From Rhodohalobacter sp. SW132 (GTDB lineage: Bacteria; Bacteroidota; Rhodothermia; Balneolales; Balneolaceae), in contig NZ_QUOK01000002.1 in NCBI RefSeq assembly GCF_003390325.1, forward strand, positions 496,001 to 560,000: a DNA stretch of 64,000 nucleotides, given 5' to 3'. The notes beneath the pieces were generated by a model, which worked only from the letters and a program-made list of their open reading frames with translations, had not been told where the DNA came from and made no database searches. Below are positions 9,169 to 11,929 of the stretch, in pieces. A program made the position numbers and the translations under genes. How positions within the stretch are numbered: position 1 is the first letter of the stretch; each line of letters begins with the position of its first letter.

Positions 9169-9203
9169 AAAAAAACCCGCTTCAGATTACTGCAGCGGGT
9201 TTT
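9169..9203 (-). terminator. trp attenuator: intrinsic terminator in the trpE leader
   Basis: Read on the minus strand, CCCGCT (9199-9194) pairs with AGCGGG (9181-9176). After a G/A mismatch, CAG (9192-9190) pairs with CTG (9185-9183) around a TAAT loop. Seven T residues follow directly (9175-9169). It lies between the leader ORF and trpE, where a terminator only makes sense as an attenuator. An alternative pairing is available: GCAGTGG (9248-9242) can form 7 bp, one of them G-U, with CCGCTGC (9198-9192), which would destroy the terminator. Confidence 0.9.
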
Positions 9204-9230
9204 GATTTCATTTCAATTCGAATGTTCAGC

Positions 9231-9305
9231 TCATAGCCTTTCCACTGCCAAATATGTGAGATTCGGCCACCACCAGCTGATATTTTTAGCATCGTTTAAT
9301 TTCAT
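9231..9305 (-). CDS. trpL: Trp leader peptide with three tandem Trp codons
   Basis: A 24-codon ORF starting ATG at 9305 (preceded by an in-frame GTG) and ending TGA at 9233-9231. Codons 11-13 (9275-9267) are TGG TGG TGG, giving the core SWWWPNL. Trp is rare, so three in a row directly before a terminator and trpE is a strong leader-peptide signature. The ORF is too short for routine gene calling. No clear Shine-Dalgarno is visible, as is common in this phylum. TCAGCT just before the Trp codons can pair with AGCTGA over the stop codon, a candidate 1:2 hairpin. Homologous attenuation in enteric bacteria is established; its use here is inferred. Confidence 0.88.
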   Translation of the reverse strand: MKLNDAKNISWWWPNLTYLAVERL

Positions 9306-9332
9306 CACGAAGAAACTAATTGATCTCCCGTT

Positions 9333-9372: not shown

Positions 9373-9473
9373 AGATATGGTATTTCTGAAGACTCAAAGT
9401 TTTGCACAGCAGTTCAATCGAAAGGGCTTTATGGTTTTGAACTGGAGGAAGTGCCATGAGAAATACCATATCT
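9373..9473. repeat. 101-bp palindromic element, copy 1
   Basis: Bounded by perfect 15-bp inverted repeats: AGATATGGTATTTCT (9373-9387) and its complement (9459-9473). Internal complementary arms (GCAC/GTGC and CAGTTCAA/TTGAACTG) allow a long cruciform or RNA stem. A second copy of exactly the same length lies at 9739-9839. It sits just upstream of the candidate trp promoter. No ORF and no transposase are present. Confidence 0.85.
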
Positions 9474-9854: not shown

Positions 9855-10925
9855 TTATTTCAATTCTATCAGCCATTTCAGGGGATCTTGGCCGTCGGGT
9901 TTCCACCAGATCGGTGGATTCTGGGCATCTCTCATTAGTTCCGGTTCAACCGGGGCGTTCTCTATTTTAGCTGATGGATCTGTAACGTAAACCGTTTGCA
10001 ATCTCTGGCGATACTTGTTTGCAAGTTCAGCGGCCTTGTTGCGGTCGCCCTGAACCCAGTGCAGGATGAACGGCTCCGTCGGTTCATGTTCGGTCTCTTC
10101 AATTAAAAAATCATCCAGCCAGGCTTGCTCAATTCCGGCCGCTTTGTTGTATGCATAGCGGTAATAAAGCGATCCCGATGGTTTTTCGTGCTGCGGATTT
10201 TTCAGCCAGAACGATTCCACATAATCGGTGAATTCACACTTGCTGCTGTTCAGCGAAAATGGAGCCACAACCATTGCCACCGACCTGCACCCTTTCCCGC
10301 CATACCGAAACACCGCATCCGCAAGGTGATGCATCGTCTCGCTGCTATTATCTTCAATACAGGCGATTGAAAAGTGGGCGGTTCGCATCAATTGTGGAGT
10401 TTTATTATCTGCAATATCAAGCTCTGACAGTTTTTCAAGCAGATCGTCAACTGAATGTACCGATCCGGAAAAAAGAAGTGCATCTGCCCTCTCCCCTTTC
10501 AGGTCCGGCAGTTCCACTGACCAGCGTCCCGATATCAGCCCGTCATTTTTTAAACTATTGAGCAGCGTTTGCGGCAGGTACGGATCTTTCCTCGAGATTT
10601 TCCCAATGTAGTGATGACCACTTAGTGCCACTGCAAGGATATCCTGCACACCTACCAGCGGAAGATTTCCCGCATGCAGACAGAGCACTTTTTTTTTCTC
10701 TGATATCCATTCTGTGTGGTTAGCCTGCTCTGCCCATCGAATCAGTTCCCCTCGTTTAATTGATTTTTTGAGGGCCTGAATTTGATATTTGATATCGGGA
10801 AAACTAAAAAACCCTTCCTTCACACTTCGGTCAATCGCTTCCCTGAGATGATCATTTCCCGGTGATAGCCATCGATCGATCGCATCCTGAAGTTTATTAA
10901 TTCTCTGTTTAATCTGCAGATTCAT
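9855..10925 (-). CDS. LuxC-like acyl-CoA/acyl-protein reductase
   Basis: Resembles the LuxC fatty-acid reductase component, an aldehyde-dehydrogenase-fold enzyme that reduces activated fatty acyl groups to aldehydes with NADPH. At 356 aa it is shorter than LuxC of luminous bacteria (about 480) but typical of Bacteroidota acyl-CoA reductases. The segments VLCLHAGNLPLVGVQDIL and GKGCRSVAMV look like cofactor and active-site surroundings. I start it at the ATG that overlaps the upstream TGA (TGATG), because GGGAGGTG immediately precedes it; an upstream alternative adds 10 residues. It is coupled to the LuxE-like gene. No luxA or luxB is nearby, so the function is not light emission. Confidence 0.8.
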   Translation of the reverse strand: MNLQIKQRINKLQDAIDRWLSPGNDHLREAIDRSVKEGFFSFPDIKYQIQALKKSIKRGELIRWAEQANHTEWISEKKKVLCLHAGNLPLVGVQDILAVALSGHHYIGKISRKDPYLPQTLLNSLKNDGLISGRWSVELPDLKGERADALLFSGSVHSVDDLLEKLSELDIADNKTPQLMRTAHFSIACIEDNSSETMHHLADAVFRYGGKGCRSVAMVVAPFSLNSSKCEFTDYVESFWLKNPQHEKPSGSLYYRYAYNKAAGIEQAWLDDFLIEETEHEPTEPFILHWVQGDRNKAAELANKYRQRLQTVYVTDPSAKIENAPVEPELMRDAQNPPIWWKPDGQDPLKWLIELK

Positions 10926-11929
10926 CACACCTCCCGATCGATCAAAAAATTGCATCCGCGAAGTTCTGCGGTTTGCCAGCGTCCAAGCACGGAAAGATTT
11001 CCATCCATATCAATCACCCCGCGATCTTCGGTCAGTATAAACGGACAACTATAGATATTTGCAAGATCGATAATCCCGATTTTCCCTTCAAACTCTGGTG
11101 CACATTCATCAAACGGATCTTCTGGATTCCTGACTGATGCGTTCATCCAATGCGGTGTTTTGAACGTTTCACCCCCGATGGCGTACATTTGGCTCAGCAG
11201 TTCGCACATTCCATATTCGGAATGTATCTGCATAAGGTCCGTACCGAATCCATCTGAAAGACGCTGCCTGAGTTCGTCTTTACTCATCTCCCGCCGGTGC
11301 GTTTTCATCCCGCCGGTCTCGATAATGTGTGCTGATTTTGGGAGTTTCGCTGAACCGGCTTCAATCAGATCAAGCAGCCCGAATGCGGCTCCAAAAAGGA
11401 TCAGCGTGTGATCTTTATCCAGTGCGGATTCTATAGTTTCGGTAGTCAGCGGTTCATCAAGCGGCAGGAACCGGCTTCTGCCCGAAAAATCTTGTTTGAT
11501 CAGGTAGTTCAGCATCCATAAAAGTGAGGAATCTGGATTATCAGCGTAGCCCGGGGTGTAGCACAGAATGGTGCTCCTATCCAAATTGAAATGCTTATTG
11601 AAGCCTTCCGTGATCGATTTTCTGTACAGATCCAAATCGGCTACAGGATGCGTGCTGCGGTTCATCGTGCCGGTCCCGGAGCTTTTAAATATCACTTCCG
11701 GTTGTTTTCCATCAACAATTAAATTCATCTCCTTAAAAGCACGAATCGGCATCAAAGGAATTTCGGAAATGCGGCGAGGCTCCTTATTTCCGGAAATAAA
11801 ATGACTGGCAAAAGTGGCATACGCCGGGTTGTGCTCCCGCTGGTAATTGAAAGCAAATATCGCACGTTCCAGAAACGAACGTGACTCATCAAACAGCACA
11901 GAGATGATCTTTTGCGTTTTTCTCTCCAT
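10925..11929 (-). CDS. LuxE-like acyl-protein synthetase
   Basis: Resembles LuxE, the adenylate-forming acyl-protein synthetase that activates fatty acids for LuxC. It is 334 aa. The nucleotide-binding signature appears as IFKSSGTGTMNRSTH at about residues 80-94, as in LuxE/PaaK-type enzymes. It starts inside the stop of the preceding gene (ATGA at 11929) and ends in the start of the luxC-like gene (TGATG at 10925), so a stoichiometric pair is likely. The fatty aldehyde product and its use are unknown; a cell-envelope lipid or pigment role is one possibility. Confidence 0.82.
   Translation of the reverse strand: MERKTQKIISVLFDESRSFLERAIFAFNYQREHNPAYATFASHFISGNKEPRRISEIPLMPIRAFKEMNLIVDGKQPEVIFKSSGTGTMNRSTHPVADLDLYRKSITEGFNKHFNLDRSTILCYTPGYADNPDSSLLWMLNYLIKQDFSGRSRFLPLDEPLTTETIESALDKDHTLILFGAAFGLLDLIEAGSAKLPKSAHIIETGGMKTHRREMSKDELRQRLSDGFGTDLMQIHSEYGMCELLSQMYAIGGETFKTPHWMNASVRNPEDPFDECAPEFEGKIGIIDLANIYSCPFILTEDRGVIDMDGNLSVLGRWQTAELRGCNFLIDREV

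Follow-up and report, generated by a model that had tools for sequence, protein, structure and literature searches.

A putative Trp-codon attenuator upstream of a trp operon containing trpS in Rhodohalobacter sp. SW132 and related bacteria

In the Escherichia coli trp operon the leader ORF trpL is preceded by a 5′ UTR that carries a ribosome site, and a survey of attenuators from 2004 reportedly covered the Bacteroidetes/Chlorobi. Weinberg et al. reported the Bacteroid-trp RNA (RF01692) from Bacteroidetes in 2010 (PMC2864571); its resemblance to attenuators that encode a Trp-rich peptide has been discussed (PMC6414381). For flavobacteria, attenuation through a leader peptide has been inferred (PMC9723704). 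Sinorhizobium (PMC7298713) and Streptomyces (PMC8079986) are known to have leaderless trp leaders. In Streptomyces lividans a leaderless Trp-rich leader ORF, trpL1 MFAHSTRNWWWTAHPAAH, precedes trpE, and a separate leader attenuator is found before trpS as well (PMC8079986).

The window analyzed here is a stretch of 64,000 nucleotides from Rhodohalobacter sp. SW132 that carries a trp operon with the gene order trpE-trpS-trpG-trpD-trpC-trpF-trpB-trpA, all on the minus strand (Table 1). A sequence-only reading of this DNA had proposed ribosome-mediated attenuation on the basis of a 24-codon ORF containing TGG TGG TGG, followed by an intrinsic terminator and then by trpE, and all of the coordinates that it claimed for these elements were verified. 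WWW was found in only one of the 680 ATG ORFs of 8–40 aa within the window, namely the leader ORF, and WW in five of them. Of 49 TGGTGGTGG sites distinguished in the whole genome, 30 were read, and the leader site is the only one followed, at most 200 nt away, by a T-tailed hairpin that exceeds −9 kcal/mol in strength. The locus shows the arrangement typical of a ribosome-mediated attenuator, in which a short ORF carrying consecutive Trp codons precedes the trp genes. The terminator situated between this ORF and the first gene folds with −18.5 kcal/mol (z −6.4), a stability matched by 0 of 200 shuffled sequences, and its stem shows covariation (see below). A simple terminator scan of the window did not pick up the terminator at 9203–9169, probably because of a mismatch in its stem.

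Table 1. Features of the trp operon and its leader in the window
Feature	Position	Strand	Details
Predicted Bacteroidota-type promoter	9341-9311	-	TTG 9341-9339, 20 nt, TAGTTTCT 9318-9311
Leader peptide ORF MKLNDAKNISWWWPNLTYLAVERL	9305-9231	-	24 codons + TGA
Three tandem Trp codons TGG TGG TGG (putative sensor)	9275-9267	-	inside leader ORF
Compound 1:2 hairpin (candidate protector)	9280-9226	-	outer TCAGCT 9280-9275 with AGCTGA 9231-9226; inner GCCGAAT 9267-9261 with ATTTGGC 9253-9247
Segment 2, GCAGTGG	9248-9242	-	antiterminator 5′ half, within leader ORF
Segment 3, CCGCTGC	9198-9192	-	common to antiterminator and terminator
Intrinsic terminator (3:4)	9203-9169	-	stem-loop 9203-9172 + T7 9175-9169
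trpE, anthranilate synthase component I	9158-7692	-	TIGR00564 560.8 bits, cut-off 517.7
trpS, tryptophanyl-tRNA synthetase, only copy in genome	7597-6605	-	TIGR00233 297.5 bits, cut-off 176.75
trpG	6544-5957	-	TIGR00566
trpD	5902-4880	-	TIGR01245
trpC	4878-4075	-	NF001377
trpF	4063-3389	-	NF002298 214.6 bits, cut-off 215
trpB	3194-2004	-	TIGR00263
trpA	2007-1195	-	TIGR00262

From the parts of the leader, their conservation and covariation, and the geometry of the ribosome, we infer the transcript start, stalling, termination and response to Trp as follows. Transcription would begin beside the leader ATG, so that the ribosome enters the leader almost at the 5′ end of the RNA. When charged tRNA-Trp is scarce, the ribosome would stall at the three Trp codons and cover the 5′ portion of the 1:2 element, freeing segment 2 to pair with segment 3; with 2:3 formed, no terminator would arise and trpE-trpS-trpGDCFBA would be transcribed. 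When Trp is plentiful, the ribosome would reach the stop codon and cover segment 2, 3:4 would pair, and transcription would end at about position 9169.

Sequences upstream of trpE were gathered from named GTDB contigs and from further genomes. A W-rich leader ORF and a terminator were recovered in 60 of the 68 Balneolia upstream sequences (54 of the 60 with WWW); in this set one genome occurs twice (L130 = L073), and two genomes have the same leader sequence (L052 and L056). The same combination was identified in 11/16 Rhodothermales and 19/20 Ignavibacteria-like genomes and in a minority of other Bacteroidota, the group labels besides Balneolia being assigned from genome kinship and a few named contigs. 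In many Bacteroidota families no W-rich leader with a terminator was found in the trpE upstream stretch that was read. The Trp-codon leader with a switchable terminator upstream of trp genes is genuine and widely conserved, and very probably works as a ribosome-mediated attenuator of a known type. A WWW leader ORF and a strong terminator were also seen upstream of trpE in the MAG of Deltaproteobacteria bacterium CSMAG_2994 (L107), whose trpE is similar to the present trpE family.

The antiterminator helix comprises seven pairs, one of them G-U. In the window alone it is not significant against dinucleotide shuffles (p 0.09); in the same kind of test p<0.05 was obtained for 42/58 Balneolia, 8/11 Rhodothermales and 6/19 Ignavibacteria-like leaders. 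The two segments differ in sequence between clades with their pairing kept: GCAGTGG/CCACTGC, AACAGCGGG/CCCGCTGTT (as in L059 and L061), CTGAAAGCGG/CCGCTTTCAG and GGACCGGTGGGCG/CGCCCACCGGTCT, with AACAGTGGG/CCCACTGTT in L049. In an alignment of 33 leaders (A3), 2:3 is paired in 231 of 231 cells, seven of them changed on both sides, and the terminator stem is 92.3% paired across relatives, with 40 double-change cells; shuffled alignment letters keep relatedness, and these covariation counts are to be taken as support, not as probabilities. Sliding the partner along the alignment, as a control for 2:3, gave at most 75% paired. An antiterminator that excludes the terminator is thus indicated by conservation together with covariation, and the pairing of GCAGTGG with CCGCTGC proposed by the sequence-only reading holds across the alignment. 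Its proposal had been made dependent on conservation of the Trp codons and of the alternative pairing, and both were found to be kept, with compensatory changes, in Balneolia and Rhodothermales.

When the window leader was folded up to segment 3, the probability of 2:3 was 0.02 for the free RNA and rose to 1.00 when the leader was masked as far as 13 nt beyond the first Trp codon; these are equilibrium foldings that ignore co-transcriptional kinetics, and high values for the stalled state arise partly by construction, because segment 2 was picked as the best partner of the terminator. In many relatives, unlike in the window leader, the model forms 2:3 even without a ribosome. A ribosome placed at the Trp codons leaves segment 2 clear in the window and in 56/58 Balneolia. 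At the leader stop codon it covers all of segment 2 in the window, and at least half of it in 53/58 Balneolia and 2/11 Rhodothermales. Other Balneolales families have a shorter ORF, with segment 2 ending just 3′ of the stop codon, while the segment 2 of Ignavibacteria-like and Flavobacteriaceae-like leaders includes bases of the stop codon and has its partner in the upper or 3′ portion of the terminator hairpin. The attenuator logic is common across the lineages, with a layout that shifts. Contiguous helices were scored; folding leader and terminator hairpin as a duplex was dropped, as it was too permissive or misplaced the hairpin arm at some loci.

The sequence-only reading had further proposed that TCAGCT and AGCTGA form the protecting 1:2 hairpin. 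This outer stem exists (six pairs) and is plausible, but it is weak when taken alone (p 0.18 in the window; significant in 11/56 Balneolia, among 92 leaders tested overall). The inner hairpin, which directly follows the Trp codons, reaches p 0.035 and is the better supported part of 1:2 in the window sequence. As a general rule the inner hairpin was rejected, since p<0.05 was obtained in only 8/58 Balneolia. The minimum-energy fold stacks the inner and outer stems (compound fold z −1.4). A 1:2 protector is supported in the window sequence and weak across relatives. Neither 2:3 nor the outer 1:2 stem is significant in the window on its own; the case for the attenuator draws its strength from conservation.

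Flavobacterial sigma-A promoters carry TAnnTTTG at −12 to −5 (PMC9723704), and start sites were predicted here from this position of the −7 box. The promoter predicted in the window would place the transcript start at about position 9306, one base before the leader ATG. A TAnnTT motif that would put the start −4 to +8 nt from the leader ATG is present in 83/94 leaders (composition shuffles: mean 15.8, maximum 25), most of which also have TTG 22–24 nt 5′ of the TA. The Trp leaders are thus predicted to be nearly leaderless, with the ORF beginning almost at the 5′ end of the transcript. A leaderless start is not a general habit in Flavobacterium psychrophilum, as only 5.5% of its mRNAs are leaderless (PMC9723704). 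Upstream of the trp promoter lies a perfect 15-nt inverted repeat, AGATATGGTATTTCT (9373–9387 and 9459–9473, with 71 nt between the arms). Further upstream of the operon (9855–11929), two overlapping ORFs were judged by eye to resemble LuxC-type acyl-CoA reductase and LuxE-type acyl-protein synthetase; the first of them gave no NCBIfam match at 1e-10.

Apart from the trpS of the operon, the assembly (98% complete) yielded no gene for a tryptophanyl-tRNA synthetase. This trpS directly follows trpE in all 60 Balneolia loci with a long enough flank, sometimes with a gap of only 3–12 nt, and a second promoter for trpS, sought between the two genes, was found neither in the window nor in 31 of 33 relatives. 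We infer that trpS is co-transcribed with trpE behind the attenuator. Comparison of trpE and trpS positions in Rhodothermales showed both genes on one strand in 13/15 genomes, with trpS ~0.1–1.3 kb downstream of trpE; in most of this order trpS thus lies within the trp operon or beside it. The two exceptions (G110 and G112) lack the Trp leader too (L116 and L118). The leader and the trpE-trpS linkage are separate traits, because in Ignavibacteria-like and other Bacteroidota genomes the leader occurs together with an unlinked trpS. As the sole synthetase gene stands second in the operon, the switch would feed back on the enzyme that produces the molecule sensed, charged tRNA-Trp. We consider it somewhat more likely than not that throughout the class, in Balneolia and most Rhodothermales, a nearly leaderless Trp leader controls one transcript of the trp genes and the only trpS, a charging sensor regulating its own amino acid and its own enzyme in one loop, and that trp leaders of Bacteroidota, as GTDB delimits the phylum, generally have a nearly leaderless start.

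One marine Balneola-like genus, represented by loci L063, L064, L066, L068–L070 and L205–L213 (partly from the same genomes), departs from this pattern. In 9/9 of its genomes the promoter and terminator are kept but the Trp-rich ORF has been lost; the trpE-trpS order is kept where checked. The region upstream of trpE contains conserved CTCYAAAG, CTGTCACTAGTGTTTACCCAC and, before trpE, a TTTTGGA-like stretch with which CTCYAAAG can pair. In one sublineage the motif reads CTCTAAA; the form CTCCAAA is that of the tRNA-Trp anticodon loop. The trpE leaders of this genus gave no Rfam match, and no tRNA gene turned up in them.

A conserved Trp run could also act through the nascent peptide, arresting the ribosome on free tryptophan in a TnaC-like manner and not via charging of tRNA-Trp. 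The Pro that often follows WWW in Balneolia (WWWP) would suit such a peptide, yet the residues flanking WWW vary widely and the Trp run alone is common to the genomes; moreover, the terminator/antiterminator geometry is the one expected for stalling on the Trp codons, and there would be little sense in a biosynthetic operon that free Trp induces. We regard this explanation as very improbable. Equally improbable is the prospect that the leader ORF is incidental to a plain terminator or to control by an RNA-binding protein or a T-box. The marine genus, with its terminator and promoter and no Trp-rich ORF, indicates that the leader can run another way, but WWW is kept across many genomes and the coverage of segment 2 at the stop codon described above recurs in most Balneolia. 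Searches of the genome (98% complete) for TRAP (PF02081) and TrpR (PF01371) genes found neither, and no Rfam family, T-box included, reached its gathering score in the window.

An attenuator whose short RNA or leader peptide also acts in trans, like rnTrpL/peTrpL of Sinorhizobium meliloti, is a shade more credible, though still doubtful in the extreme: the two systems share a short attenuated RNA with a leaderless start (PMC7298713), while no trans target is apparent from the sequence and, outside WWW, conservation of the peptide tracks the RNA pairing segments. The conserved WWW, the covarying 2:3 and terminator helices and the ribosome geometry support the ribosome-mediated attenuation originally proposed, and on this sequence evidence we put the probability that the trp operon leader is such a transcription attenuator at roughly 0.93.

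Covariation thus allows trp attenuation by a leader peptide to be extended to Balneolota, Rhodothermales and Ignavibacteria-like lineages, in which no Rfam model recognized the leaders tested, and the spread across lineages suggests that the device is old in the group. These bacteria mostly lack Shine-Dalgarno sites, and the near-leaderless start raises the question of how ribosome and polymerase are synchronized without a 5′ UTR. The feedback design is unusual in that the only TrpRS gene stands behind the attenuator, and the genus without Trp codons offers a natural comparison.

The sequence-only reading knew of no described case in this phylum. We likewise found no Balneolota case in the literature consulted, but Bacteroid-trp (PMC2864571, PMC6414381) and the leader-peptide attenuation inferred for flavobacteria (PMC9723704) are precedents from Bacteroidetes, so the type of device is already known and is less new than first implied. 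Like the leader described here, Bacteroid-trp is a leader RNA upstream of trp genes, and the Flavobacteriaceae-like leaders L167 and L168, which match RF01692 and served as positive controls, likewise encode WWW and a terminator, the promoter of L168 adjoining the ATG. The antiterminator of the Balneolota leader differs from that of RF01692 in sequence and placement, and at the gathering score of 49 bits the model had no match in the window or in the Balneolota, Rhodothermales and Ignavibacteria-like leaders tested. The proteobacterial trp leader (RF00513) has the same attenuation logic and aligned to the window over the whole model with 25.8 bits, below its gathering score of 41; E. coli trpL follows a 5′ UTR, whereas here the ORF begins at the predicted transcript start. 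The Balneolota leader works like the Bacteroid-trp and proteobacterial families and by score belongs to neither Rfam family. With S. lividans trpL1 and S. meliloti trpL (PMC7298713) it shares a Trp-rich leader ORF that is leaderless and lies upstream of trpE. S. lividans, however, has a separate attenuator for each of trpE and trpS, whereas the operon described here carries both genes behind a single one.
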